A DNA stretch of 38,280 nt. It comes from Candidatus Desulfaltia bathyphila. GTDB taxonomy: Bacteria; Desulfobacterota; Desulfobacteria; Desulfobacterales; ETH-SRB1. Shown here one piece after another: positions 4,860 through 34,767 of this stretch. Position 1 is the stretch's first letter, and each line of letters begins with the position of its first letter. The translations under genes were made by a program, and so were the position numbers. Below the pieces are notes generated by a model, which saw only the letters and a program-made list of their open reading frames with translations, searched no databases and was not told the origin of the DNA. The stretch is from assembly GCA_014381545.1 (NCBI GenBank), contig JACNLL010000075.1, positions 1-38,280 on the forward strand. Direction: 5' to 3'.

Positions 4860-5528
4860 TGCTGTTGCAAAAATAAGATCTTCCCTGTTTGTAATTTTTA
4901 TATTCCGTCTGCTGCCATAAATTATTTTAATATTTCCCCCGAGTCTTTCCACGAGTGATGCATCATCTGTGCCCGCAAAACCTTCCCTCCTTGCATTTTT
5001 ATGGGCTTTGATTATCAGATCATATTGAAAAGCCTGTGGGGTCTGTGCAAGAAATATATCATCTCTTTTAAGTGTGTCGCATATAAAACCGGAGCTGTCC
5101 ACCTGCTTTAAGGTATCGTTTGCAGGAACAGCCGGGATGCATGCACTATACTCTTTTGCGCCGGTTATACATGCCGCTATCTGCGCCTGAGAAACAAAAG
5201 GTCGCACACCATCATGGATGACAACTATTTCCGCGGTATCTTTATCTACTGCCATAAGGCCATTATATGCAGATTCTTGACGTTTCTCTCCGCCAGCCAC
5301 AAGATTGATCTTTTTGTAAAGCTTTAAGGGGCTAACTATATCTTTCCAGCAATAATCGACATCTTTTTTTGGAACAACAAGAATGATGTGATCTATCAAA
5401 TCGCATACATCAAAAGCCAGCAGGCTATAAGCCAAAATCGGACGGCCAGCAAGCACAAGATACTGCTTGCGCAGTTTATCATTCATCCTAATGCCTTTGC
5501 CGGCAGCCACAATAATTGCTGAAATCAT
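4851..5528 (-). CDS. ispD: 2-C-methyl-D-erythritol 4-phosphate cytidylyltransferase
   Basis: It transfers CMP from CTP to methylerythritol phosphate in the non-mevalonate isoprenoid pathway. It is 225 residues long, as expected. The N-terminal nucleotide-binding motif is [11 protein letters not shown] (5-15). [12 protein letters not shown] and AQTPQAF are the conserved catalytic and substrate motifs, and GTDDASLVE is close to the family signature. It is the last gene of a minus-strand run, 5 bases after the HPr-domain gene, so it is probably cotranscribed with sufC, the sufBD-like gene and the HPr gene. ispF, often adjacent, is absent here. Confidence 0.95.
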
Positions 5529-5533
5529 ATTTT

Positions 5534-6838
5534 TTATCTCAAATAATTCAATTCTTCAGGCAGCGGAACCCCTTTTCCCATTGTATCTTCACCATAGTTG
5601 ACGCTGGCAAGCATTTCTATATCCTTTAAAGCACGCGTATCCCCTTCGAATGTAACCTTGTTAATGTTCTCATTCTGTATCTTGCCGCCGGCCCATTGTA
5701 TGTCGAGCACACTACTGGCGTCAAACCTGTCCGATTTTATACATAGTTCTACCTGTCCCCCGTAATGCTGAACAATTTTGGCGACAAGAAGACTGGGTCT
5801 GCTGTGAAAACCAAGTTTTACCGGAATGCCGACAGTAATGGAAGAACGCTCTATATTCTCATTCAGTATATCCCGCGCCAAAGCTTTGCCGGTCATCAGA
5901 AAGTGGCAAACATAATACAGGCCGTAATTAATAATACGGTCAAGGAGGGTTGACGTATCTATAAGGGATGCCAATCGGTCTTGAACCTTTTTGTAAATAT
6001 TTTTGTATCCAGCCTCATACAGGTGTCTTTCATAAAAATGGAGAAGCCTGCCGATCATCTGAAGAAGATGGAATACAACTGAAATATAGCCGCGGAGCTG
6101 CTTAAGCCTCCTGTTGCCAAACCTGAATCCTCCGTGTATCACATATGTATCAAATGAAGATTGAAGGTTGTGCGCAAGCATTTCAAAACGTCTAATCTCA
6201 ACCTCATTGATCTTATCCGGTACAATAGTCAATATTTCTTCCATACTGTATGGTTCATAAAAGCCCAACTGGTCAAAATTTCCTGCAATACTCAAAAATT
6301 CACTGGCAATTTTAACTATATGTTTCTTCTGCTGATCTTTATCCTTATCATCGATATTATAATCGAGCATCTCATCTGTCGGAATAGTCGGGAAATAGGC
6401 GGGCTTAAAAGTATCATCAGGAATGGGGATATTAAGGTGTTTCGCTTCATCAAGTATAATCGGCGCCATTTTCATAATAGAACTTGTCAAAAAATCAAAT
6501 GTAATTTCACCTTCCTTTTCAAAACTCTCTGTGTTCACAAGGTCATAAAATACAAGTCTGTTTGATATATGCTTATACGAATAGCTCGCTATACTTAAAT
6601 GTCTGACAGATGCCGTAAACTCCCTGTAAAGATACCAGTTGCTATTGTTTTTGGCTCCGTGAAAATCAAGAAAGTCCTCTAAAAGCTGGGATGTAGATAT
6701 CAGTTTTGAATAAAGTCTTTTTGTAAAACCATGCTTGTGCGAATCAAAACCAGAAATGTAGTTGCAACACTTCAGGTAATCATGAGAAAATATCCGCACC
6801 TTTTCATCAAAAGTGCTGTCAAAATCAGCTTGTTGCAT
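5534..6838 (-). CDS. HPr-domain protein with large helical N-terminal region
   Basis: This 434-residue protein has a C-terminal HPr-like domain (about 335-434). It contains GFHSRPSLLVAKIVQHYGG, where H345 corresponds to the phosphorylatable histidine of PTS HPr. The region normally holding the regulatory serine motif reads SSVLDIQWAGG. The first 330 or so residues are rich in helix-forming sequence and match no enzyme I know. A phosphocarrier-derived sensor or adaptor role is inference. It sits 17 bases after the sufBD-like gene and 5 bases before ispD, so it belongs to their operon. No PTS enzyme I or IIA is visible in the window. The HPr domain is clear and the function is not. Confidence 0.75.
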   Translation of the reverse strand: MQQADFDSTFDEKVRIFSHDYLKCCNYISGFDSHKHGFTKRLYSKLISTSQLLEDFLDFHGAKNNSNWYLYREFTASVRHLSIASYSYKHISNRLVFYDLVNTESFEKEGEITFDFLTSSIMKMAPIILDEAKHLNIPIPDDTFKPAYFPTIPTDEMLDYNIDDKDKDQQKKHIVKIASEFLSIAGNFDQLGFYEPYSMEEILTIVPDKINEVEIRRFEMLAHNLQSSFDTYVIHGGFRFGNRRLKQLRGYISVVFHLLQMIGRLLHFYERHLYEAGYKNIYKKVQDRLASLIDTSTLLDRIINYGLYYVCHFLMTGKALARDILNENIERSSITVGIPVKLGFHSRPSLLVAKIVQHYGGQVELCIKSDRFDASSVLDIQWAGGKIQNENINKVTFEGDTRALKDIEMLASVNYGEDTMGKGVPLPEELNYLR

Positions 6839-6855
6839 TTAACTTAGCTCTGCTT

Positions 6856-8040
6856 CTATATCATATCTTTCTGAGTTTCGGAGATGATCTTCTCAAGCTT
6901 GTTTTTGAGACCTGGCGGCAATCCTTCTATATCAACATTTAAAAACCCGCGAACAATGGTTGATATTGCCTCATCCTCATCAATGCCCCTTGCCATGAGA
7001 TATTCTATCTCACGCTGATCAATCTTGCCTACCGCAGCCTCATGAGACATCTCAACACCTGGAACATATGCTCGAAGTTCAGGTATAGCGTGCATCAGCC
7101 CATCTTTTAATATTAAACCCTTACATTCAAGATGTGCCTTAATGCCGGAAACTTTGCCGACCAGATCACCACGGGCAATAATTGTTCCTCCGGATGTAAT
7201 TGAGCGAGATATTATCTCTGCCCGTGTGTCAGGAGCATTAAGCACTATTCGTGAACCCACATCCAGGAAATCGCCCTTGTTAGCTACAAGAACGCTGTTG
7301 AAACGCGCAACAGCGCCTTTCCCGTTCAAGTATGTTGTGGGATACATCTGAAGTGACCCTACCGGTCTTAATGATATATAGTTTGAAATAATAAGTCCGC
7401 CTTCTTCTACCCTGGTCACCGTTCTGGGCCGTACATTTATTTTTTCACCCCAGTCATGAATCATGGTAAATATAAGTTTTGCCCCTTTTTTGACATAAAA
7501 TTCCGAAACGCCTACGTGTAGCCCTGAAACCAGATGGGGCGCTGTTGCGCACCCTGTAATAATGTGGAGCTCCGAACCTTCTTCAGCGATCACAACATTG
7601 TGAACATTTTGCGAAAAACCTTCTTTGGCGATATAAAGGCATGACTGTACCGGATGCTCTGTTTTAACCCCTGGAAGGGAGCGTATAAAGTACCCCTCGT
7701 GAGGTTTTTTCTTTGCCTGGGATGTAAATTTGTCGGTATCCGGAGATATATTTTTCCATATATAATCGGAAAGCCACCCATGTTTTTCCTGAGCCTGGGA
7801 TATGCTCATAACCTCAATGCCGTCTTGCATGGTTTTGCAGTGTATTACAGATTTGTCTTTCTGTATGAAGCTACCGACACGATCATTTTCATCGGTATCC
7901 ACACCAACATCTAAAAGCTGGTTTGCATCTGTTGATTTAATTTGTGACAAATTGTCAATATATGCATGGTCTTCAGCATCAACCTTGTAGTTTTCAAGAT
8001 TAACATCTCTGGCATCATCTATAGTGTACATCTGACGCAC
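6856..8040 (-). CDS. SufB/SufD-family Fe-S cluster assembly scaffold subunit
   Basis: This 394-residue protein carries the SufBD beta-helix core, with [32 protein letters not shown], and the C-terminal [20 protein letters not shown] and [12 protein letters not shown] motifs. The SHEAAVGKI stretch holds the histidine expected in scaffold proteins. It partners the ATPase encoded immediately upstream, whose 3' end it overlaps by 22 bases. With one SufBD-type subunit, no SufS, SufE or SufU, and no second SufB/D, the pair resembles the minimal two-gene SufBC-like systems of archaea and anaerobes. Whether it is functionally SufB or SufD cannot be told from this sequence alone. Confidence 0.85.
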
Positions 8041-24310: not shown

Positions 24311-24598
24311 GTCTTATTTCTCAATTCCATCCCTTGCCTGCACGCCCTTCTGATAGTAGTGCTTGATCTCCTTCATCTCCGTTACAAGGTCAGCTTCTTC
24401 GATAATCCGCGGGTCTGCCATCCTGCCAGTAATAACCAGCTCGACCTCTTCCGGTCTTGCCCGCATAAAGTCCAGCAGGTCCTCTACGGAAAAAAGATTA
24501 TAATAGGTGGCAATATTGGCCTCATCAAGGATAATCATCTGATACTTGCCGGAACACATGATCTCTTTGACCTCTTTGAGCCCTTCCTGGGCGGCTTG
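24266..24598 (-). repeat. Direct-repeat copy 1 (cobO 3' half plus asnB-like start)
   Basis: This segment matches 31679-32050 in the same orientation, by eye roughly four bases in five. It covers the 3' part of intact cobO, the 3-base GAC spacer after the stop, and the first bases of the asparagine-synthetase-like gene. Here the synthetase part is reduced to a remnant: about 43 bases are missing after the start, and a TAA follows ATACTC. Confidence 0.8.
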
Positions 24599-24829
24599 AA
24601 TATCTTCCTTGTCCGGGTCTTTGTAAATAAAGCAGTTCCTGCCGTATTGTTTTATCGTAATAAACTCTGACAGCTTTGCCAGGCTATTGAGCTCACTGTA
24701 CTTCATCCCCTTGACGAACTGGGCAATATATACCTTAAAGCCGGCGCCGGCGGCACGCAGAGCAAGTCCGAAAGCGGCAGTTGTTTTGCCTTTACCATTG
24801 CCTGTGTAAACGTGGATGTATCCTTTCAT
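24314..24829 (-). CDS. cobO: Cob(I)yrinic acid a,c-diamide adenosyltransferase (intact copy)
   Basis: It transfers the adenosyl group of ATP to cob(I)alamin or precursor corrinoids. It has about 171 residues, a P-loop fold, and Walker A TGNGKGKTT. The motif IILDEAN and the C-terminal LVITGRMADPRIIEEADLVTEMKEIKH are typical of the CobA/CobO/BtuR family. I chose the inner ATG (24829) because GAGG lies 5 bases before it. The extra five upstream codons (from 24844) are possible. The gene follows the cobC-like gene on the minus strand. A diverged, broken copy of its 3' half lies at 31769-32050. Confidence 0.94.
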   Translation of the reverse strand: MKGYIHVYTGNGKGKTTAAFGLALRAAGAGFKVYIAQFVKGMKYSELNSLAKLSEFITIKQYGRNCFIYKDPDKEDIQAAQEGLKEVKEIMCSGKYQMIILDEANIATYYNLFSVEDLLDFMRARPEEVELVITGRMADPRIIEEADLVTEMKEIKHYYQKGVQARDGIEK

Positions 24830-24941
24830 ATTTTCCTCAAACAATTTCTTTTTTTTCCAATCTCATCGATGTAAACGCCGGCGTAGGCTGCCGGTTAGGA
24901 AAAAAGAATTAATAATATCGGAAGAATTTTTATTCTGGGGA

Positions 24942-25550
24942 TTAAAAAGTCTGCCCATTCATCAACTTAACAACGGCGAGTTCGGGAAAGTAATCTATAA
25001 CATTGAGGCAGCCGTAGTTCTGTTCAATGGAATAAAAATTTTCCAAGTCAAGGTTCATGGCATCCGCAAGTATCACGCGATTGACCCCTCCATGGGCAAG
25101 CAGAACAATATTCCCCCCGTGATTTGCACCCAAAATCTTCTTCAGAGCCGGGATGACTCTGCCGGCCAGGTCCCGGATACTTTCCCCTTCCGGTATCCTG
25201 TAATCAATTATCTTTCTTCTCCATTCCTCCAGTGTGCCGGGGAACCGCGTTTCTATCTCCTTAAGGGTCAGCCCTTCCCACAACCCGATATTCAATTCCC
25301 TCAGTGTATGGTGGGATTCAGGAGTAAGGCCATGTTCTGCAGCAACGATCTCTGCCCCCCTTTTTGTCCGGATCAGGTCGCTGCAGTAGATGCCTGCCAG
25401 ATTCTCATTCTTGAGCCCGGCCGCGACAGCTTCCATCTGCCTGACTCCAAGTTCACTTATATCCACGTCATTGTGGCCGTTATATGTTCCCTCCGAAAAG
25501 TTCACCACCTGGCCGTGTCTTATCAAATATAATCTTGTATGGATGTCCAC
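24942..25550 (-). CDS. cobC: Alpha-ribazole phosphatase-like histidine phosphatase
   Basis: It would remove the 5'-phosphate from alpha-ribazole phosphate or adenosylcobalamin phosphate in nucleotide-loop assembly. It is a histidine-phosphatase-fold protein with the catalytic LIRHGQ, SDLIRTKRGAEI, LRELNIGLWEG and LLAHGGVNRVI (second His) motifs. I prefer the GTG at 25550 as start, since GGAG lies 5 bases before it and it places the RHG motif close to the N-terminus. An in-frame ATG at 25604 would add 18 residues. The cobalamin neighbours justify the cobC assignment. From sequence alone it could be another phosphoglycerate-mutase-like phosphatase. Confidence 0.85.
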   Translation of the reverse strand: MDIHTRLYLIRHGQVVNFSEGTYNGHNDVDISELGVRQMEAVAAGLKNENLAGIYCSDLIRTKRGAEIVAAEHGLTPESHHTLRELNIGLWEGLTLKEIETRFPGTLEEWRRKIIDYRIPEGESIRDLAGRVIPALKKILGANHGGNIVLLAHGGVNRVILADAMNLDLENFYSIEQNYGCLNVIDYFPELAVVKLMNGQTF

Positions 25551-25610
25551 AGGTACTCCATATTCTAAATAAAATTGATGGACTGGCAAAAAGTCGGAGT
25601 GCATCAATTT

Positions 25611-26369
25611 TCAAAACACTATTAAATTCATTTTGTATAGTGCACAAATCAAGAGCAAAGTAGTAACTTCGCTCACTTCACATACCGCCCCCATGATGTC
25701 TCCCGTCACTCCCCCGATGCGCTTTTTGAAAAATAGACCGAAAAGAAGTGTTACGGCCAATATGACCAAATATACAACCAGCCCTTTGAGCTGAAACAGT
25801 CCGATCATGACGGCTGCGGTTATGAGCGTGGAGATGACGTATTCCTTTTTGCCGGCAAATTGTGTAAAGACAAGCGCCGTTCCCGGGCCTGATCTGGCAT
25901 AATTAAAGCACGTAGCAAGTTGAACCGTCGACCACCTTCCCAAAACGGGCATTATCAAAAGTGTCCTGTTTTTGATTTCCACGGGCACCTCCATCAGGGC
26001 AAATACCTTCAGTATCAAAAGGAGTATAAGACCGGCTACGGCAAAGGAGCCGATCCGGCTGTCCCTCATGATGGCAAGGATCTCTTCTTTATTTTTTCCT
26101 CCTGCCAGGCCGTCAACCGTATCGGCGAAGCCATCCAGATGAAAGGCGCCTGCAAATATCACCAGCGCCACAATAACAAGTATATCCACGAGAGGTGCGG
26201 GAAGGAGGTAGCTGGAGGCTGTTCTTACGGCCACGAGTATCAGACCTATAAGAAGTCCGACCAGGGGGAAACAGGCCATTGACTTGCCAAGCTTTTCCTC
26301 CGTAACATCAAAGCCTTTTGATATCCTGATTATGGTGAGAAACTGTAATGCAGTAAGAAACCTCTTCAT
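25611..26369 (-). CDS. cobS: Adenosylcobinamide-GDP ribazoletransferase (cobalamin synthase)
   Basis: This integral inner-membrane enzyme of 252 residues joins adenosylcobinamide-GDP to alpha-ribazole to complete the cobalamin loop. Motifs are LTALQFLTIIR at the N-terminus, FPLVGLLIGL, FHLDGFADTVDGLAGG (acidic, Mg-binding) and MRDSRIGSFAV. Several hydrophobic helices follow, and GGVTGDIMGAVCEVSEVTTLL closes the family pattern. It lies two bases after cobT and upstream of the cobC-like gene on the minus strand, a very tight operon. Confidence 0.96.
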   Translation of the reverse strand: MKRFLTALQFLTIIRISKGFDVTEEKLGKSMACFPLVGLLIGLILVAVRTASSYLLPAPLVDILVIVALVIFAGAFHLDGFADTVDGLAGGKNKEEILAIMRDSRIGSFAVAGLILLLILKVFALMEVPVEIKNRTLLIMPVLGRWSTVQLATCFNYARSGPGTALVFTQFAGKKEYVISTLITAAVMIGLFQLKGLVVYLVILAVTLLFGLFFKKRIGGVTGDIMGAVCEVSEVTTLLLICALYKMNLIVF

Positions 26370-26371
26370 TA

Positions 26372-27427
26372 TTACAGAGCCTTATCCACGCCTGCCGATT
26401 CAAAGGTTGCCATCTCGGTCATGATCTTTACGGCGGCCTCGATTATAGACATGGCTATGGCTGCACCCGTTCCCTCACCCAATCTCATATCCAGATCCAG
26501 GATCGGCTTCTGTCCGAGCCTCTCAAGCATTTTTTTATGTCCGGCTTCGGAGGAAAGATGCGAATAGAACAGGTATTCGTTTATCGCGGGGTTCAGCGCA
26601 ACGGCTATCATGGCGCCCGCTGTGGAGATAAAACCATCCACCACCACCGGTATCCGGTGGGAAACGCAGCCGATAATAAGCCCGGCAATGCCACCTATCT
26701 CAAATCCACCAACTTTGGCCAGGACATCTACGGGATCTTCGGAGTCCGGGCGGTTTAAATTTATGGCTTTATCTATAACATCCACTTTTCTCCGGAGCGT
26801 TTCGTCATCGATGCCGGTGCCTCTGCCTGCAACCTCCCCTGCCGGCAGACCGGTAAATACAGAGAGTATTGCACTGGATGGGGTGGTGTTTCCTATGCCC
26901 ATCTCTCCCGTTCCTATGATATCCACGCCCTTTCCGGCATATTCGTCCGCAAGATCAAGTCCGGTCTTTATTGATCGCAGCGCCTCATCATGTGTCATGG
27001 CATGGCCTTTCGCAAAGTTCTTCGTCCCATGACCTATTTTATTGATAACAAGCCCTTCGGCTGGTTCAAAATCATGGGCTACCCCGATGTCCACAACCAC
27101 CACTTCTGCCCCCACATGTCTTGCAAAGACATTTACAGCAGCCCCTCCGGCCAACATATTCAAAACCATCTGTATGGTGACCTCCTTAGGATATGCGCTC
27201 ACGCCCTCATCCACAACACCATGATCACCGGCGAATGTAAATATCACCTTCCTGCCGGCAGGCGGGTTCATGTCCTCTTTGATGGCTGCGTATCTTTGTG
27301 CAATAACTTCAAGCCTGCCGAGGCTTTCGGGTGGTTTTGTAAGGCTGTCAAGTCTTAGCTTTGCCCGCTTCAGATAGTCTTCGTTCAATGGTTGGATGCT
27401 GTTTAGTATTTTCTGTAAATTCTTCAT
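26372..27427 (-). CDS. cobT: Nicotinate-nucleotide:dimethylbenzimidazole phosphoribosyltransferase
   Basis: It activates the lower-ligand base to its alpha-ribotide in cobalamin assembly. It has 351 residues, the usual length. Motifs include LDSLTKPPESLGRLE, FAGDHGVVDEGVSAYPKEVT, GGAAVNVFARHVGA, GEMGIGNTTPSSAI, VVDGFISTAGA and LDLDMRLGEGTGAAIAM, where the Glu (E) is the catalytic base. It follows cobU after 20 bases and abuts cobS. No bluB or bza genes are in the window, so the source and identity of the lower-ligand base cannot be read here. Confidence 0.97.
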   Translation of the reverse strand: MKNLQKILNSIQPLNEDYLKRAKLRLDSLTKPPESLGRLEVIAQRYAAIKEDMNPPAGRKVIFTFAGDHGVVDEGVSAYPKEVTIQMVLNMLAGGAAVNVFARHVGAEVVVVDIGVAHDFEPAEGLVINKIGHGTKNFAKGHAMTHDEALRSIKTGLDLADEYAGKGVDIIGTGEMGIGNTTPSSAILSVFTGLPAGEVAGRGTGIDDETLRRKVDVIDKAINLNRPDSEDPVDVLAKVGGFEIGGIAGLIIGCVSHRIPVVVDGFISTAGAMIAVALNPAINEYLFYSHLSSEAGHKKMLERLGQKPILDLDMRLGEGTGAAIAMSIIEAAVKIMTEMATFESAGVDKAL

Positions 27428-27447: not shown

Positions 27448-27975
27448 CTACTTTATCCTGACATGGATGCCGGAGAGAAGGGCATAGACCTCATCTGCCG
27501 CCCCGGCCATTTTCTGGTTGAGAAAGCCGAGTTGATCCCTGTATAACCTCGCCAGTTTATTGTCCGGGACTATTCCCATCCCGACCTCATTGGAAACAAT
27601 TATGATCGTTCCGTCAAACTTGTTTATATTCAAGAAAAAGTCGTCCATGATTTCCGATATTTTTTCATCTGAAAATCCCTTTTTTTCTAAAGGGGGGATA
27701 ATGATATTGGACATCCAGAGTGTCAGACAATCGACAAGGATTGTGTTATATGAACCCGCCGCCGCTCTCAATGCCCTTCCAAGATAGATCGGTTCCTCCA
27801 CGGTATCCCACCGGTCACCCCTGTCCTCCCGGTGTTCTTGAATCCTGTGTCTCATTTCTTCGTCAAAGGCCTGAGCAGTGGCCAAAAAGAGCCTCTTACC
27901 CTTCAGCTTCTCCGCCATATCCTGAGCAAAATCACTCTTGCCGCTTCTGGCTCCTCCTGTTACGAAAATGATCAT
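27448..27975 (-). CDS. cobU: Adenosylcobinamide kinase / cobinamide-phosphate guanylyltransferase
   Basis: This bifunctional enzyme has 175 residues. It phosphorylates adenosylcobinamide and then transfers GMP to it. Walker A is VTGGARSGKSDFAQ (7-14). EEMRHRIQEHREDRGDRWDTVEEP, DCLTLWMSNI and VSNEVGMGIVPDNKLARLYRDQLGFLNQ are family motifs. The guanylated histidine (CobU His46) lies in the HRIQEHREDRG stretch. It sits between cobD and cobT on the minus strand. The 136-base gap to cobD is larger than other gaps in the operon and holds short direct repeats. Confidence 0.96.
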   Translation of the reverse strand: MIIFVTGGARSGKSDFAQDMAEKLKGKRLFLATAQAFDEEMRHRIQEHREDRGDRWDTVEEPIYLGRALRAAAGSYNTILVDCLTLWMSNIIIPPLEKKGFSDEKISEIMDDFFLNINKFDGTIIIVSNEVGMGIVPDNKLARLYRDQLGFLNQKMAGAADEVYALLSGIHVRIK

Positions 27976-28111: not shown

Positions 28112-29236
28112 TCAATTGAATTTACAAATTGTATAAAATCTGCCTTGCTTAACCATTTTTTTCAACTTTTCGACAAGAATCATATTCTGCTCATGTTTTT
28201 TGACAGCTACACGAAAATAACGGTCTTCCATGCCATGAAATGTGCTGCAGTCCCTTATCAGTATCCCTTCCGGCATCAATCGGTTTCTGAGTTCCGTAGA
28301 GTTTAATCCGATTCGGCTCTCCATAAAGACAAGAAGATAGTTTGCCGCGCTTTCAAATGCACGCAAACCGTGGATTTTATTTAAGGCATTTTTTAAAAAT
28401 TCCTTTTCGGCGGATATATATTGTCTTGTTTCCCTGATATAATCTTTGTCGAAAAGGGCCTTAACCGCTGCTCCCTGAACCAATGAGTTTACCGTCCAGG
28501 GAGGTTTGTTTTCCCTGATCTTCGCGATACACGATGGAACAGCCAATATATAGCCTAATCTAAGTCCCGGAATGCCAAAAAACTTTGTCATCGATCTAAG
28601 TACTATCAGATTGGAAAACCTGAGAATCTCTTTCTTGACAGACTCTTCCTCTACAAAATCTATGAAGGCCTCGTCTATGACCACAAGCGCACCTGTTTTA
28701 TCCGCACATGCTATAACACGGCACAATTCATCTTTTGATGTAAGGACACCTGTTGGATTAGCGGGATTGCAAAAATAGACAATATCAAAACCTTCCTCCA
28801 GACGTTTGCAAAGGCCGGCAATATCTATGAAAAAATCTTCTTTTTCATCAGTTTGAAAGTATGAAACTTTTGTGCCGGCCAGCCTGAGACCTTTTTCATA
28901 CTCACTGAAAGCAGGTGTAACAATAAGGGCTTTTTCAGGTTTGAATACCATCGGTATCCGGTACATAAATTCCGTGGAACCATTTCCCATAAGGATACAA
29001 TCCCGATCAATGCCATGGTATTCCGACAACCCTGAAACAAGATCAAAAGAATCAATATCAGGATAATTTAATACAGAATCAAAATCTTTTATTATCGCAT
29101 TACGCAGGCCCGGCGGGTAACCCAGAGGGTTTATGCCGGCGCTGAAATCGATAATCCTGTCTTCATCGATTCCGTATATTCTGGAAATTTCACTAACATT
29201 GCCGCCATGATCTCTTTTTATTATTATATCATCCAT
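28112..29236 (-). CDS. cobD: L-threonine-O-3-phosphate decarboxylase
   Basis: This PLP enzyme makes (R)-1-amino-2-propanol phosphate, the linker attached by CbiB. The aminotransferase class I/II fold is about 374 residues. Motifs are FSAGINPLGYP, the cofactor region YFCNPANPTG, VVIDEAFIDF, and VLRSMTKFFGIPGLRLGY with the PLP lysine. I take the ATG at 29236, which overlaps the cbiB stop codon and gives the usual N-terminus. The upstream in-frame ATG at 29293 would lie within cbiB. HisC-type aminotransferases are related, but the cob neighbours and the motif set favour CobD. No pduX threonine kinase is visible. Confidence 0.92.
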   Translation of the reverse strand: MDDIIIKRDHGGNVSEISRIYGIDEDRIIDFSAGINPLGYPPGLRNAIIKDFDSVLNYPDIDSFDLVSGLSEYHGIDRDCILMGNGSTEFMYRIPMVFKPEKALIVTPAFSEYEKGLRLAGTKVSYFQTDEKEDFFIDIAGLCKRLEEGFDIVYFCNPANPTGVLTSKDELCRVIACADKTGALVVIDEAFIDFVEEESVKKEILRFSNLIVLRSMTKFFGIPGLRLGYILAVPSCIAKIRENKPPWTVNSLVQGAAVKALFDKDYIRETRQYISAEKEFLKNALNKIHGLRAFESAANYLLVFMESRIGLNSTELRNRLMPEGILIRDCSTFHGMEDRYFRVAVKKHEQNMILVEKLKKMVKQGRFYTICKFN

Positions 29237-30165
29237 AAGGTTAGCACGCAAACAGCCGCCATCAAAAAAGATGAGATAAACATGACAACCCATACCTTTT
29301 TTACATCATCTCTGTCTATTTCTTTTATCCTGTCGCCAATCGTTGGTTTGTGAGAAATTTTTCCAAAATACTGAATCTTGCCGCCCAATTGTATATTCAG
29401 TGCACCGGCTGTCGCGGCCTCCGGCGTGCCGCTGTTTGGGCTTGAATGGTTTTGACCGTCCCTTCGCATAATTTTCCATGAATCCCGCCAGTTGAGCCTC
29501 AGTATAAAAGAGACGGCCATAATAATGAGCCCGGTGAGTCTTGCGGGTACCCAGTTGAACATATCGTCCATTTTGGCAGAAAACCAACCGATATCCCCAT
29601 ATCTGTCATTTTTGTATCCTACCATTGAGTCAAGGGTGTTGGCCGCCTTATAAGCCATAGCCAGAGGAAGACCGCCGAGAACCAGGTAAAACATGGGCGC
29701 TACAATGCCGTCAGACAGGTTCTCTGATACTGTTTCGATAACAGCCCGGCAAATTTCCTGCTCATCGAGATTTTCCGTATCTCTCCCCACGATCATGGAG
29801 AGCTTTTTCCTTGCTTCCACAATATTTCCGTTGTTCAACGCATCGATCACAGCTTTGCTTTCATCAAAGAGGGATCTTGTCGCCAAGGTCATGGAGGCAA
29901 ATAGAACCGTTATAATTGCACCAAACAAAGCATTTATAAAAAGACACCCTTCCACTATTCCCCAGGTAATGAAAAAAGTGGGAACAACTACGGCAAACCA
30001 CAGGATTATTCCGCCCTTCTTTTTGCCTATAATTGAAGTGCGGCGAATCTTATCCTCCAAAAACCTCACAGACTTCCCGATGATAACCACAGGATGAGGA
30101 AACCAGCGAGGGTCCCCGATTATTATATCAACTATATATGCTCCAAGGAAAACTGCCGGTGTCAT
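29224..30165 (-). CDS. cbiB: Adenosylcobinamide-phosphate synthase
   Basis: This inner-membrane enzyme attaches aminopropanol phosphate to adenosylcobyric acid. It has 313 residues and several membrane segments. Motifs are LGAYIVDIIIGDPRWFPHPVVIIGK at the N-terminus, GRDTENLDEQEICRAVIETVSENLSDGIVAPMFY, and DGQNHSSPNSGTPEAATAGAL, the loop that defines the family. Its start overlaps the Dph6-like gene stop by an ATGA-type arrangement, and its end overlaps the cobD start. Together with CobD it forms the linker-addition step of this operon. Confidence 0.96.
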   Translation of the reverse strand: MTPAVFLGAYIVDIIIGDPRWFPHPVVIIGKSVRFLEDKIRRTSIIGKKKGGIILWFAVVVPTFFITWGIVEGCLFINALFGAIITVLFASMTLATRSLFDESKAVIDALNNGNIVEARKKLSMIVGRDTENLDEQEICRAVIETVSENLSDGIVAPMFYLVLGGLPLAMAYKAANTLDSMVGYKNDRYGDIGWFSAKMDDMFNWVPARLTGLIIMAVSFILRLNWRDSWKIMRRDGQNHSSPNSGTPEAATAGALNIQLGGKIQYFGKISHKPTIGDRIKEIDRDDVKKVWVVMFISSFLMAAVCVLTLWMI

Positions 30166-30836
30166 TGTAGTTCACATTCTGATATATTGAGAAAGGAGTG
30201 TTCTCCACGGCTCACCTTTTCAGATTTCAAGATGTTTATTCTTTTCTTGAATATAGGACCTGATACTACAAAAGTATGATATTCCCCACCTTCGCCGGAA
30301 ATATCAACTCCTTTGATTTTCGAGATATCCCGGACAAAATCATGATCAATCCTGCGCCCCAGCCATTCCGGGCCCAATAAATCTTTTTTGGTAGCCACAA
30401 CAACGGTTTCAAACCCTGCTTCTATCAACTCTTCTATAAGGTTCTCCCTGTTATTCTCCCCCCACAGTGGCAAAACTGCCTCCATCCCCGATTCTTTGCT
30501 GACCCGCTCGACCCATTCCCTGTGTGCATTTAGATCAATGTCTCCAAAGATTCCTATTTCAACTCCCCTCCCCTTCAAACCAGACAAGGCCTTTTTAAAT
30601 TCTGCCTCGTATGTTTCCCAGGAACTTCTCGGCTGAACTATTGTAAGGCCCATCGCCTCGGCCTGTAATCTCAAGATGTCTGTCCTGATACCGTGGGATC
30701 GTGATATCCGACCATCTTCAGCAACCATATTCAAGAGATGGGTAACATGGAAAATCTTCATCGCCCTGTAATAAGACAGAGCCCCATCCTTACCCCCGCT
30801 CCAGGAAACAAAGGCCTTTACTTTACATCTTTCCAT
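30162..30836 (-). CDS. Dph6-like ATP pyrophosphatase (diphthine-ammonia ligase family)
   Basis: This 224-residue member of the PP-loop ATP pyrophosphatase superfamily carries SWSGGKDGALSYY (13-17 SGGKD). HLLNMVAEDGRISRSHGIR, FGDIDLNAHREWVERV, VLPLWGENNRENLI and the C-terminal GVDISGEGGEYHTFV are the Dph6/MJ0570-type motifs. In eukaryotes Dph6 amidates diphthine using ATP and ammonia. Bacteria lack diphthamide, so another amidation or adenylation substrate is likely. It overlaps the 3' end of the asparagine-synthetase-like gene by 19 bases and the cbiB start by 4 bases, so it is firmly inside the cobalamin operon. Its reaction there is unknown. Confidence 0.85.
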   Translation of the reverse strand: MERCKVKAFVSWSGGKDGALSYYRAMKIFHVTHLLNMVAEDGRISRSHGIRTDILRLQAEAMGLTIVQPRSSWETYEAEFKKALSGLKGRGVEIGIFGDIDLNAHREWVERVSKESGMEAVLPLWGENNRENLIEELIEAGFETVVVATKKDLLGPEWLGRRIDHDFVRDISKIKGVDISGEGGEYHTFVVSGPIFKKRINILKSEKVSRGEHSFLNISECELQ

Positions 30837-31765
30837 TCAGTAACATCTCCACAGATTTTGCAGTGAAAGGCATCGAGAGCCATGCCAGAACGGCAACACT
30901 CACATATTTTTTGTCCCTTTTCGGGAGCGGAAATTTCCCCAACCACCTCCCGGTAAATACGGTAATAATAGAAATGTTCTTTATTCCAGAATCTTATTGG
31001 AAATCTCTTCTTTCCCTCTTCAAACTCTTCATCCGATACCTTTGATGCCACAATCTTTCTCAGTTCTGTCATACCGGAACCGTATTCTAACGGTCTTTTA
31101 CTTTGCCATAGTATCTCTTGCGGCAATACGTCTTCAAAAGCTTTACGCAGTATCCACTTTCCCCAGGTTTTCCTGTTTTCTCTTCTGATCTTAAGATCGG
31201 CATCAATACCTTGACTGAAATCCATAAATTCTTTATCCAGAAAAGGCTGTTTTATGTCGATTTCGAAGGCTTCCCCTATCTTGTTGGAGCTGAATTGCAT
31301 GGCTGAATGCATCCGAGCCAAGTATCCTGTTAAATCTTTTATCTCCAGCATAAAATCGTAGCCTGCAAAGATCTCATCACTTCCGTCGCCTGTCATCATG
31401 CTCTTTATACCCATATCTTTCGCACACTTGATCCCCAGGTAGGATGTTACATCGTTAGGGATAACAGGATCAAAGCTCTTGAGTATCTTTATGACTTTTG
31501 GAATTGTAGCAATGGCTTCTTCAATCTTCACAATCTTGTAGCAATGGTCAAGTTCGAGGGATTTTGCTACCTTTTCGGCATAATATCGATCCTCTCCGTA
31601 TGACTCAAGCCCGATCGAGATGGCCTTGCTGTCTTTGGCATAAGCAGCTACGACAGCAGAATCAAGGCCGCCGGAAAAGAGTATTCCCTCCGCCCGATTT
31701 CTGCTGACCGCTTTGGCAAATCTTCTTTTCAGTTCATGAAAAAGAAATTTCTTATCCTTATGCAT
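30818..31765 (-). CDS. Asparagine-synthetase-like protein lacking the glutaminase domain
   Basis: This 315-residue Asn_synthase-domain protein starts with the synthetase core: ILFSGGLDSAVVAAYAKDS (SGGLDS 31-36), SFDPVIPNDVTSYLGIKCAK, MMTGDGSDEIFAGYDF and IKQPFLDKEFMDF. The N-terminal glutamine amidotransferase domain with its catalytic Cys is missing, so an ammonia-dependent ligase or a partner-fed enzyme is implied. The C-terminus has five cysteines in a zinc-like pattern (C288, C290, C291, C302, C305). It is translated just after the broken cobO copy and overlaps the Dph6-like gene by 19 bases. Asparagine is not an obvious product in this context. Confidence 0.85.
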   Translation of the reverse strand: MHKDKKFLFHELKRRFAKAVSRNRAEGILFSGGLDSAVVAAYAKDSKAISIGLESYGEDRYYAEKVAKSLELDHCYKIVKIEEAIATIPKVIKILKSFDPVIPNDVTSYLGIKCAKDMGIKSMMTGDGSDEIFAGYDFMLEIKDLTGYLARMHSAMQFSSNKIGEAFEIDIKQPFLDKEFMDFSQGIDADLKIRRENRKTWGKWILRKAFEDVLPQEILWQSKRPLEYGSGMTELRKIVASKVSDEEFEEGKKRFPIRFWNKEHFYYYRIYREVVGEISAPEKGQKICECCRSGMALDAFHCKICGDVTEWKDVK

Positions 31766-31768
31766 GTC

Positions 31769-32050
31769 TCATTTCTCAATTCCATTCCTTGCCTGCACGC
31801 CCTTCTGATAGCAATGCTTGATCTCCTTCATCTCAGTCAGCAGGTCAGCCGCTTCAATGATTCGCGAATCTGCCGCCCTGCCGGTAATCACCAGTTCGAC
31901 ATCTTCCGGTTTTGCCGGATAAAATCCAGTAAATCATCCACAGAAAAAAGATTGTAATAAGTGGCCATATTGGCTTCATCAAGGATAATCATTTTATATT
32001 CCCCGGAATACATTATCTCCCTGACCTCTTTGAGCCCTTCCCGTGCGGCT
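31769..32050 (-). pseudogene. Truncated, frameshifted second cobO copy
   Basis: It encodes only the CobO C-terminal half, from AAREGLKEVREIM through MIILDEANMATYYNLFSVDDLLDFIR. One base is missing near 31918, after which the shifted frame continues with KPEDVELVITGRAADSRIIEAADLLTEMKEIKH. It ends in TGA three bases before the asparagine-synthetase-like start. The whole Walker A half is missing, and the fragment begins at the btuB stop codon. It can no longer make a functional adenosyltransferase. The intact paralogue lies at 24314-24829. Confidence 0.88.
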
Positions 32051-33921
32051 TAAAAAGTTACCTTGACTCCACCATAAAAACCGATACCAGGTTCGCCATA
32101 TTTATAAATCGATTGATACTTCTTGTCGGTTAGATTTTCCACCCTTCCGAAAATCTTAAGCCATTCCATTACATCATAGGAAGCAACAAGATTATAGAGT
32201 GTATAAGCCGGCATTGATTCGCTGTTGTCTTTCTCACGATATCTTTTTCCCACATATTGCGCGTTGAGGTTAACATTCAGCTTTTCCAGCGGTTTTATGT
32301 TCAGTGAGGCGCCTCCTGTGTGCTGCGTCCGGTATCTCAAATACTTGCCGTTATTTGCATCCGTTTCATCCTCGTTTTTTGCCTCAGTATAGGTATAGTG
32401 GGCATTGAAACTCAACCACGTAACGGGCTTAACAGAAAAACCGGTTTCCCAGCCCTCAGTTTTGACCTTACCAACATTATAATATTTGCTGGTACTACTG
32501 TTATAATCAATCAAATCATCAATCTTGGTATGGAAGTAGGTTGCAGACAGCAATACCTTTTTATCGAACAGCTCCTGGTCTATCCCTGCATCATAACCTT
32601 TACTCTCTTCAGGTTTTAGATTAGGATCCCCATAGCTTGAATAAAGTTGATAAAGCGAAGGGGCACGAAAACCTGTGCCATAGCTTCCCCTTACCTTGGT
32701 TCCTGTTTTCTCATAGAGATAGGCCAGCGCCCCCTTATACGTGTCCTCTCCTCCAAAAGTCTGGTGGTCATCGTGGCGGGCGCCAAGGGTAAAAGAAAGA
32801 GCCTTAAACGGGGTCAGTTTGTTCTGTACAAAGAAACTCTTGGTGTTGACACTCTTGTTTGTGATGTTACCCCACGGACTCTGACTGTCCCCGTTTTCTT
32901 CCTGATAATCAAATCCTGCGGTGATGGTATCTATCTCACCAATAAAGAAATTGTGCTGCCAGGACGCCAGTTTTATTGTTCCGTTATATGTTCCATCAAA
33001 AACACCATTGTTTTTTGTATATTCTCTTTTTGTTTCCGTGATGCCAAACTTGATGATATGCTGCCACCAATCAAAAATATCCTGATTAAAATTTGTAGAA
33101 ATACTGGTAATATCCGTATCCTGAACCTTGTCGGCATCAGTCCCTGAGTCATCATAATCCATAGCCGATTCGGAATGGCGTACTGAAAAACCCACTCCAA
33201 CTGTTTCACTGATCCGACCATCAACCCGGGCGGAGATATTTGTGTCGTTATAATAATCCCTTTCGATATTCCCCAGATCTTCATCCGCCCTTGACACGCG
33301 TTTGACATCCAGACGTGATACAGACGCAGCATAATTAACCTTATCATTCGACCCGCTGACACCTGCTCTTTCCCTGAATGTCTCAAAGGAACCCCCTTCG
33401 GAAGACAGATAAAACTTCGGTTTTCCTTCGCCTTTTTTGGTAATTATATTGATAACACCGCCAATGGCATCAGATCCATATAAAACGCTCTGCGCTCCGC
33501 GGACAATCTCGATCCTTTCGATATTGTCCGTGGATAGATCGGCAATGCTCATTTTTCCATCAGTAGCCATAGGATCGCCCACGCGCACGCCGTCAATCAT
33601 AATCAGGGTGTGGGCATTATTTGTCCCGCGTGTATAAATTGACGAAGAGCCACCAGGTGATCCATTCTGCTTAACAAAAACACCTGGAACATCCCTGAGC
33701 ACATCTATGACAGTTTTCTTTCCTTTTTTTTGAATCTCCTCCCCGGTAACAATGGTCACGGAATCGGGTGAATATTTTAAAGACTCTTCCAACCTGCTTG
33801 CCGTTACCACTGTTTCTTCCATTGTTACAACATCCCCCTCTTCCTGCGCAAAAATCGGCACAGGTAAGCTCAAAAACATAAATACTAATAATACTGCCAC
33901 ACAATTTAACAACTTCTTCAT
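32050..33921 (-). CDS. btuB: TonB-dependent cobalamin receptor BtuB
   Basis: This outer-membrane vitamin B12 receptor has 623 residues. A signal peptide (about 1-25, cut after IFA) is followed by a TonB box-like EETVVTASR (35-43). The plug shows DVLRDVPGVFVKQNGSPGG, IYTRGTNNAHTLIMIDGVRV and IEIVRGAQSVLYGSDAIGGVINIITKKG. The barrel ends in VTF with a terminal Phe, as expected for a beta-barrel. The ribosome binding site GGGGAAAGGAG lies upstream. Two tandem cobalamin riboswitches precede it, giving strong regulatory support for B12. TonB, ExbB and ExbD are encoded at the end of the same locus. No btuFCD ABC transporter is visible. Confidence 0.93.
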   Translation of the reverse strand: MKKLLNCVAVLLVFMFLSLPVPIFAQEEGDVVTMEETVVTASRLEESLKYSPDSVTIVTGEEIQKKGKKTVIDVLRDVPGVFVKQNGSPGGSSSIYTRGTNNAHTLIMIDGVRVGDPMATDGKMSIADLSTDNIERIEIVRGAQSVLYGSDAIGGVINIITKKGEGKPKFYLSSEGGSFETFRERAGVSGSNDKVNYAASVSRLDVKRVSRADEDLGNIERDYYNDTNISARVDGRISETVGVGFSVRHSESAMDYDDSGTDADKVQDTDITSISTNFNQDIFDWWQHIIKFGITETKREYTKNNGVFDGTYNGTIKLASWQHNFFIGEIDTITAGFDYQEENGDSQSPWGNITNKSVNTKSFFVQNKLTPFKALSFTLGARHDDHQTFGGEDTYKGALAYLYEKTGTKVRGSYGTGFRAPSLYQLYSSYGDPNLKPEESKGYDAGIDQELFDKKVLLSATYFHTKIDDLIDYNSSTSKYYNVGKVKTEGWETGFSVKPVTWLSFNAHYTYTEAKNEDETDANNGKYLRYRTQHTGGASLNIKPLEKLNVNLNAQYVGKRYREKDNSESMPAYTLYNLVASYDVMEWLKIFGRVENLTDKKYQSIYKYGEPGIGFYGGVKVTF

Positions 33922-33965
33922 TTTTAATTTCTCCTTTCCCCTCGGTTAGAATTATTGTTTTATCC

Positions 33966-34201
33966 GTCAGATAAGTCTCCTGGCTTGCGGCAATTCCTAC
34001 TCTCCACGCCTTCCCGGAAAAGCAGTTGTCGGTGACCAGTGTTTAGTGGTCAGGAAACAACTATTTAATCCAGTGGCCAGTGTTAGTCGCAGCGCCAGTT
34101 TTTTTACTGGTCACTGTCAACTAATCACTCTTTTATGTGGATTTCGTTCCGCCCACAGTTGCGGGGCAGCGCCGGCATCTGACCGGCTTCCTTAATCTGA
34201 C
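33966..34201 (-). promoter_or_regulatory. Cobalamin riboswitch B, proximal to btuB
   Basis: On the minus strand, outer P1 GTCAGAT (34201-34195 side) pairs with ATCTGAC (33972-33966). The core reads GGAAGCCGGTCAGATGCCGG, CCCCGCAACTGTGGGCGG and GGGAAGGCG, with the closing GCCAGGAGACTTATCTGACG. The B12-box position reads ACAACTG rather than the canonical GCCACTG. The aptamer is about 236 nt and its variable arm is enlarged by CCAGTG/CACTGG-type repeats (about 34035-34125). It ends 44 bases before btuB, so it could control translation initiation. Confidence 0.85.
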
Positions 34202-34208
34202 AAATTCC

Positions 34209-34248
34209 AAAAAAAATCCCCGAACCGATATTAAATCGATCCGGGGAT
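34209..34248 (-). terminator. Intrinsic terminator between the two riboswitches
   Basis: ATCCCCG (34216-34222) pairs with CGGGGAT (34242-34248), and additional pairs form inside. Eight T's follow on the minus strand (34216-34209). It lies after riboswitch A and before riboswitch B, so it is well placed to be the expression platform of A. Confidence 0.85.
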
Positions 34249-34357
34249 ATCCCTTTTTTATCCTCTGATCTTCCGACATGCTTCGGTCCACGAAAGCTAT
34301 GCCTTTAAAAACATTTAAAAAGCCAACTAACAAATGCCTTTTAAAAGTTTTTCCGTA

Positions 34358-34529
34358 CGCTCAGGCAGGTTTTCTGACTCTCCCGCCTCTTTAGCGGCCT
34401 TCCCATCCGTTTTACCAGAACAGTGGCATATAAATGCTAAAAAGGTCCCCTCTCTAAAAAAGGGTGGGATTACAGCGGCGGGCCCGTCCATGATTTACAC
34501 ATGGTTCCCTATTAAGCTCAAGATGAGCG
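34358..34529 (-). promoter_or_regulatory. Cobalamin riboswitch A, distal
   Basis: On the minus strand, P1 CGCTCA (34529-34524) pairs with TGAGCG (34363-34358). The core contains AATAGGGAACCATGTGTAAA, TCATGGACGGGCCCGCCGCTGT, TATGCCACTG (canonical B12 box), GGATGGGAAGGC and GAGTCAGAAAACCTGCCTGA. The length of about 172 nt is compact. It lies upstream of a terminator and a second aptamer, all transcribed toward btuB. Confidence 0.92.
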
Positions 34530-34767
34530 CCTAAACTATATTTTATATTTTTAAACTATTTATATTATGGAGTCAAGAATTTTTATGTTCGGATTATTTT
34601 TTAACATATCTTCGTGAACTTGTCTTAAAATCATCTTAAAGCCTCAACCAGTTAGTGTCAAATCATAACAGGCTCGCTTTAAACCCTTGCCTGCATTTGT
34701 CTAATTTGTCGATGTCGAGGATAGCTCCAAATTTTCTCACAGAATAATGGATAAATGAAAAATTTGC

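Follow-up and report, generated by a model that had tools for sequence, protein, structure and literature searches.

The DNA analyzed here, a stretch of 38,280 nucleotides from Candidatus Desulfaltia bathyphila (assembly GCA_014381545.1, contig JACNLL010000075.1, positions 1 to 38,280; hereafter the window), carries on its minus strand a series of genes in the order TonB-dependent receptor, ASN, DPH, cbiB, cobD, cobU, cobT, cobS, cobC, cobA, and exbB. ASN and DPH denote the pair of ligase-like proteins in question, a stand-alone asparagine synthetase core and a PP-loop ATPase of the DUF71/Dph6 type. The original prediction, made from the letters of the window, had described them as a synthetase core without glutaminase domain beside a Dph6-like ATP pyrophosphatase in overlapping reading frames, and this description stands: ASN matches only PF00733, its alignment with E. 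coli AsnB beginning at residue 207 of the latter and the N-terminal class II glutaminase domain being absent, DPH matches PF01902 (3.5e-55), and the predicted overlaps of 19 nt between ASN and DPH (30818-30836) and 4 nt between DPH and cbiB (30162-30165) are present. The names of the genes further downstream rest on their sequence resemblance and order, that of cbiB also on Pfam (Table 1).

The association of the two genes with each other and with corrinoid genes holds well beyond the window (genomes and loci are referred to by G and L numbers). In a scan of public genomes, 80 of 583 ASN relatives were kept, namely nine orthologues (51-79% identity) and 71 other AsnB loci; DPH directly follows ASN in all nine orthologue loci, whereas none of the 71 control loci contains DPH or a specific corrinoid gene of the reference set (for L010, the match counted in this comparison is BtuF only). 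Across 37 loci of several lineages, a count that retains contig-edge and damaged ones, DPH lies on the same strand as ASN in 35, either adjoining or with other genes between, the two exceptions being L209, which contains no DPH, and L217, where the contig ends in ASN; in L213, ASN is broken by a stop and lies 989 nt before DPH. With 35/37 against 0/71 control loci, the explanation as chance neighbors was rejected. Corrinoid genes are found within 8 kb of the pair in 34 of the 37 loci, the others being L007 and L170, both situated at contig edges and the latter with a damaged copy, and L173, where MetE and ExbB are the neighbors. The frequent occurrence of the pair away from such genes, which the prediction had named as a possible refutation, was looked for in these loci and not found. 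CobT (25 loci) and CobU (23) are among the commonest neighbors, while BtuC and BtuD occur in 22 loci each and CbiB in 20. Cobalamin riboswitches (RF00174) were detected in 22 of 28 loci tested (L131 and L160 share a contig and were taken as one), immediately preceding ASN in L202 and L003.

Of 192 genomes drawn from the class, 12 contain ASN (E<=1e-60) and 23 contain DPH (E<=1e-20), all of the 12 being among the 23; ASN is present in 12 of the 17 genomes of the window family (f1), with one damaged copy (G196), and in 17 of 384 genomes of the Omnitrophota, the phylum of L010. The distance matrices of ASN and DPH correlate with r 0.89 over 28 loci, a value reached by none of 2000 permutations, and with r 0.67 within 12 Omnitrophota loci, where 2 of 2000 permutations came out as high. 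The pair is a genuine and conserved module of corrinoid metabolism, which in most cases is controlled by cobalamin riboswitches. The ASN copies of three order-level relatives (f40) fall inside the Omnitrophota group of the ASN tree, which suggests a transfer of the gene between lineages. MetE is encoded beside or near the pair in the genus g1 (L173:9352-11631, L128, L130; Pfam-confirmed in L173 only), as expected for a B12-starvation regulon, and in L133 (G114) a RACo-type reductive activator of corrinoid proteins (5519-7069) follows DPH.

Table 1. Genes, sequence motifs, and regulatory elements around ASN and DPH in the window
Feature	Position	Strand	Basis or remark
ASN, stand-alone asparagine synthetase core, 315 aa	30818..31765	-	PF00733 match 2.9e-44, no GATase domain
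ASN PP-loop SGGLDS, residues 31-36	31658..31675	-	alignment
ASN Lys223, aligned with essential Lys466 of human ASNS	31097..31099	-	invariant in 33/33
ASN zinc-ribbon-like motif C288, C291, H301, C302, C305	30851..30904	-	absent from AsnB; zinc binding putative
DPH, DUF71/Dph6-like PP-loop ATPase, 224 aa	30162..30836	-	PF01902 match 3.5e-55
DPH residues 182-187, EGGEYH motif with His in place of Glu188 of Dph6	30276..30293	-	alignment; PMC3541065
cbiB	29224..30165	-	PF03186, 366.5 bits
cobD-like (Thr-P decarboxylase)	28112..29293	-	sequence resemblance; true start maybe further downstream
cobU	27448..27975	-	sequence resemblance
cobT	26372..27427	-	sequence resemblance
cobS	25611..26369	-	sequence resemblance
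cobC-like phosphatase	24942..25607	-	sequence resemblance
cobA, intact copy	24314..24844	-	sequence resemblance; compared with remnant
Remnant of a decayed cobA, located between ASN and the receptor gene	31770..32054	-	no open frame
TonB-dependent receptor, BtuB-like	32050..33921	-	sequence resemblance; riboswitch upstream
Cobalamin riboswitch heading the receptor-ASN-DPH-cbiB stretch	33953..34239	-	RF00174, 66.3 bits
Second cobalamin riboswitch, further upstream	34347..34549	-	RF00174, 84.4 bits

The two riboswitches, the zinc-ribbon-like C terminus of ASN, and the cobA remnant had not been mentioned in the original prediction. The remnant shows 83.9% identity to the 3' half of the intact cobA over 285 nt, and a cobA, either whole or short, is present at this position or close to it in the related loci L005, L006, and L133.

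The sequence of ASN combines conserved and altered features of asparagine synthetases. An alignment of 33 ASN sequences (omitting the damaged or cut copies of L170, L213, and L217, as well as L003 of G178 and L128, which comes from the same genome as L004) shows S31, G32, G33, D35, and K223 as invariant, and the same applies to C288, C291, H301, and C302 of the extra C-terminal C-x2-C...HC-x2-C motif. ASN retains the PP-loop as well as the residues corresponding to Lys466, Asp367, and Glu368 of human ASNS, with Glu364 replaced by Asp, while the position of Arg403 is taken by Ser159, which is at least 90% conserved, and that of Asp400 by Met156. Lys466 and Glu364 are reported to be required for the activity of the human enzyme (PMC6748925, PMC11615228), and Arg403 holds the alpha-carboxylate of the aspartyl-AMP intermediate (PMC11615228). 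Because of these retained and replaced residues, we take ASN as an enzyme which probably still adenylates its substrate, but has lost the pocket for aspartate. The AlphaFold2 model of ASN (pLDDT 90.3) finds its best fold matches in AsnB, human ASNS, and beta-lactam synthetase, followed by carbapenam synthetase and the hydroxyamidotransferase TsnB9, and the protein scores below the respective NCBIfam cut-offs (PRK09431, 174 bits vs. 499; TIGR01536, 119.7 bits vs. 267). That AsnB is the nearest relative by sequence could be read as a sign of an ordinary ammonia-dependent asparagine synthetase merely riding in the operon, but this is hardly credible in view of the replaced equivalents of Arg403 and Asp400, the fixed association of ASN with DPH and the riboswitches, and the presence of a full AsnB with a GATase domain in the window genome.

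DPH is well modeled by AlphaFold2 (pLDDT 94.7) and matches Dph6 from Pyrococcus (3rjz) at 1.3e-38, but reaches only 132.1 bits on the Dph6 profile TIGR03679, which has a cut-off of 197.3. The EGGE/DxE motif of Dph6 with Glu188 is not present; instead, DPH shows EGGEYH and thereby agrees, as E-x-G-E-[YF]-H, with the ENGE[FY]H-type motif of the DUF71-B12 subgroup. The motif was rejected as a marker for B12, because bacterial DUF71 copies outside of B12 clusters have the same pattern, and it does therefore not discriminate the members of this subgroup. Bacteria are not known to contain diphthamide. DPH without ASN was found in 11 genomes of the class draw, lying within a B12 cluster in two of them (G186 and G112), whereas seven contain no corrinoid gene in the stretch read; in G155, the contig ends inside DPH just before cbiB, so that the presence of ASN cannot be read there, and a CbiR-like ORF lies nearby in G175. 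In a quick tree of 50 DPH rows, leaving out four partial copies and one duplicate and containing none of the published DUF71-B12 members, the DPH proteins of the pairs stand apart from the ASN-less copies of G186 and G112; at least two label changes are required for the 31 DPHs that belong to pairs, a single origin being also compatible. No pair was observed in plasmid records among the matches listed (20 of 27 for DUF71 and 30 of 54 for AsnB), and of seven plasmid DUF71 regions inspected, five are annotated and contain no B12-annotated gene, while two carry no annotation.

The connection of DUF71 proteins with B12 is already known: de Crecy-Lagard et al. described DUF71 proteins in B12 clusters in 2012 and proposed a role as CbiZ substitute (PMC3541065). 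The fixed ASN partner was not found in print in a literature search that covered few subscription journals. Applied to the pair, the published proposal would mean that the nucleotide loop or the aminopropanol moiety of cobamides is removed at the expense of ATP, with ASN as a helper, to provide cobyric acid for CbiB. An argument for such a role is the occurrence of CbiB within 8 kb of the pair in 20/37 loci. Together with BtuC and BtuD (22/37 loci each), it gives the pair the neighborhood of B12 transport genes or cbiB described for the DUF71-B12 subgroup. In addition, CbiB and CobD are present in the window genome (G000), while CbiP, CbiD, and CbiZ were not found there, so that some supply of cobyric acid is required in this genome. 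CbiZ is also under-represented, occurring in one of 12 pair genomes of the class instead of the 4.4 expected (70/192 overall; P(<=1)=0.030), in agreement with the 2012 paper (PMC3541065), although this P value is inflated by kinship, as nine of the 12 genomes counted belong to one family.

On the other hand, neither of the two proteins contains the CbiZ domain PF01955, Pfam recognizing only PF00733 and PF01902, and the mutual exclusion with CbiZ expected of the DUF71-B12 subgroup breaks down where a BtuF-CbiZ fusion is encoded directly before ASN (L006 and L008); another such fusion occurs in G071 (L156), and CbiR co-occurs with the pair in G148, G071, and G178. CbiB was not detected in 8 of the 18 genomes with an intact pair, and three of these eight (G148, G162, and G199) are 92-95% complete (a fragment in G195 below the cut-off was counted as present). 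Since these genomes lack a detectable CbiB, cobyric acid would be a dead end in them, and an enzyme making cobyric acid for CbiB alone does not fit, unless the drafts miss the gene. CbiB was not found either in G186 and G112, the two genomes with an ASN-less DUF71 protein in a B12 cluster. Moreover, a hydrolase of the PP-loop type was already doubted by a reviewer of the 2012 paper (PMC3541065). The published idea is weakened by CbiZ in the same operon, by CbiR, and by the missing CbiB, and appears rather doubtful for the pair. The BtuF-CbiZ fusions themselves (PF01497 plus PF01955; L156:6808-8820, L006:1677-3716, L008:5214-7277) start with a signal-peptide-like N terminus, and many of the CbiZ domains in the class are part of reading frames with a length of about 670-740 codons, so that a periplasmic cleavage of cobamides before their import may be possible.

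The lack of CbiB is also hard to reconcile with the pair acting on the linker, one of two variants of a reading in which the target would be the linker precursor or the base of the lower ligand instead of the corrin ring. Purines can be aminated by PP-loop enzymes, as exemplified by GMP synthetase, and CobT and CobU are among the commonest neighbors (25/37 and 23/37), but the pair of L010 is surrounded only by a TonB receptor and BtuFCD, and this kind of target is regarded as improbable. Similarly small chances are given to a modification of a protein or peptide involved in corrinoid handling, comparable to that of EF2 by Dph6. Candidates would be a corrinoid-binding protein or a peptide such as CbpA, whose gene, together with that of the radical SAM maturase CbpB, follows ASN in five Omnitrophota loci (L208, L209, L210, L211, and L215), lying between ASN and DPH in all of these except L209; the TIGR04164 cut-off was passed by the three CbpA peptides tested and that of TIGR04163 by CbpB where tested (L211). 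Peptide- and lactam-forming relatives of AsnB are also among the weaker profile and fold matches of ASN. However, L209 has CbpA but no DPH, and since the CbpA motif did not turn up when the other pair loci were scanned in six frames, the pair evidently works without CbpA there. The names of CbpA and CbpB point to cobalamin, the basis for this naming not being found in the literature search. The motif of the CbpA precursor peptides reads KCKAxGTGLSHY, and the peptides and CbpB are encoded within B12 salvage operons (L208:9385-9489, L209:7661-8713), the peptide of L209 being in frame with the end of ASN. In L208, L210, and L211, DPH is followed by one or two additional short proteins of the radical SAM type.

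A view on the de novo pathway genes provides the strongest hint for amidation, though it rests on draft genomes. In G014 (L129), G071 (L131), and G198 (L172), the start of ASN lies 4 nt inside the end of cbiH, and this place is taken by cbiP-cbiA in the sister genome G092 (L155), which has no pair; in G173, cbiH and ASN-DPH are located at the ends of two contigs. The ASN copies of these four pair genomes form one clade (support 100/99). CbiP was found in one of the 18 genomes with an intact pair; it was not detected in G071, G173, and G198, though CbiD is present, and CbiD occurs in four of the 17 f1 genomes, each of them with the pair. CbiA-family matches occur in most pair genomes; the neighborhood was inspected in three (G000, G071, and G186), where they lie beside dsrAB-like genes and were therefore rejected as cobyrinic amidases. 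We take these proteins to be DsrN-type siroheme amidases. With CbiB present, no CbiP, CbiD, or CbiZ, and this protein as its sole CbiA-family match, the window genome (G000) looks like a corrinoid salvager. In G092, a PF00590 tetrapyrrole methylase encoded after CbiA (L155:10542-11324) resembles CobF and perhaps replaces CbiD, for which no match was found in this genome.

The interpretation favored here, to which we assign a probability of roughly 40%, is that ASN and DPH are dedicated, co-evolving adenylating amide ligases, which use ATP and free ammonia to amidate a carboxylate of a corrinoid. In the PP-loop site of each enzyme, a carboxylate would be converted to the acyl-AMP, from which AMP would be displaced by free ammonia to yield the amide, no glutaminase being encoded with the pair. 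The likeliest substrate would be one of the peripheral carboxylates on a corrinoid. In salvagers like that of the window, the pair may complete or repair under-amidated corrinoids imported by BtuB/BtuFCD, whereas in a small number of de novo producers it may assume the role of CbiA and CbiP. Of the joint role in amidating or activating a corrinoid that the original prediction had proposed, the amidation is consistent with the residues of ASN, which fit amide-ligase chemistry on a substrate other than aspartate, but a target in the linker step is improbable, as CbiB was not detected in 8 of the 18 pair genomes. The amidation of corrinoids already bearing the loop would still fit these genomes. 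A stricter version, in which ASN and DPH are a non-orthologous replacement of CbiA plus CbiP by two unrelated ammonia-using PP-loop ligases, acting as sole amidases of the pathway in G071, G173, and G198 and in finishing or mending corrinoids in salvagers, is considerably less probable.

Several points weigh against amidation by the pair. There is no known need for side-chain amidation in salvagers which import complete cobamides. G014 contains both the pair and an intact CbiP-CbiA, and since most genomes compared are drafts, as are G071, G173, and G198 (98, 89, and 74% complete), CbiP-CbiA may simply be unbinned in these three. Within f1, CbiP and the pair occur together in one genome, the pair only in 10, CbiP only in two, and neither in four (G196 with its damaged copy taken as lacking the pair); CbiP and an intact pair are thus not clearly exclusive, and the numbers are too few to carry weight. 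The absence of CbiB also limits the idea of a pair that makes only cobyric acid by amidation. Finally, the chemistry of DPH may have changed, because a His replaces the Glu of Dph6 near the substrate site, and its activity need not depend on ASN, because ASN-less DUF71 proteins occupy similar B12 clusters in G186 and G112.

The occurrence of the pair in B12 uptake and assembly operons of several little-known bacterial groups suggests an as yet unidentified step in making or recycling B12. While DUF71 in B12 clusters has been a prediction lacking a reaction since 2012, the ligase-like partner, the altered substrate pocket, and the CbiP-CbiA slot now lead to a short list of testable reactions. 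If amidation proves true, cobyric acid could be made without glutamine amidotransferases, and B12 auxotrophy as called from genomes on the basis of CbiA and CbiP would be wrong for some lineages.

Compared with known systems, DPH resembles the DUF71-B12 subgroup (COG2102), whose members are bacterial, encoded beside cbiB and B12 transport genes, and have a His in the C-terminal motif (PMC3541065); the pair deviates from the subgroup as published there in the fixed ASN-core partner, the possible presence of CbiZ or CbiR, and the possible absence of CbiB. The same source reports fusions of GAT-II, Asn synthetase, and DUF71 domains in Methanohalophilus and others, in which both PP-loop domains are joined on one chain in the order of ASN and DPH, but which are archaeal, include a glutaminase domain, and are read as Dph6 with an ammonia source (PMC3541065). 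ASN shares the synthetase fold, PP-loop, catalytic Lys, and acidic residues with AsnB and human ASNS (EC 6.3.5.4) and differs from them by the missing GATase domain, the lost equivalents of Arg403 and Asp400, the zinc-ribbon-like tail, and the B12 context. Likewise, DPH belongs to the same fold family as the diphthine-ammonia ligase Dph6 and has its PP-loop, but falls below the TIGR03679 cut-off and carries His for Glu188. The CbpA/CbpB system (TIGR04164/TIGR04163), which follows ASN in some Omnitrophota B12 operons, should be regarded as optional, being absent from the window and most pair loci. The amidases CbiA and CbiP are glutamine-dependent and belong to families unrelated to ASN and DPH, but occupy the same slot after cbiH in the sister genome and would share the overall chemistry with the pair if the amidation reading holds.

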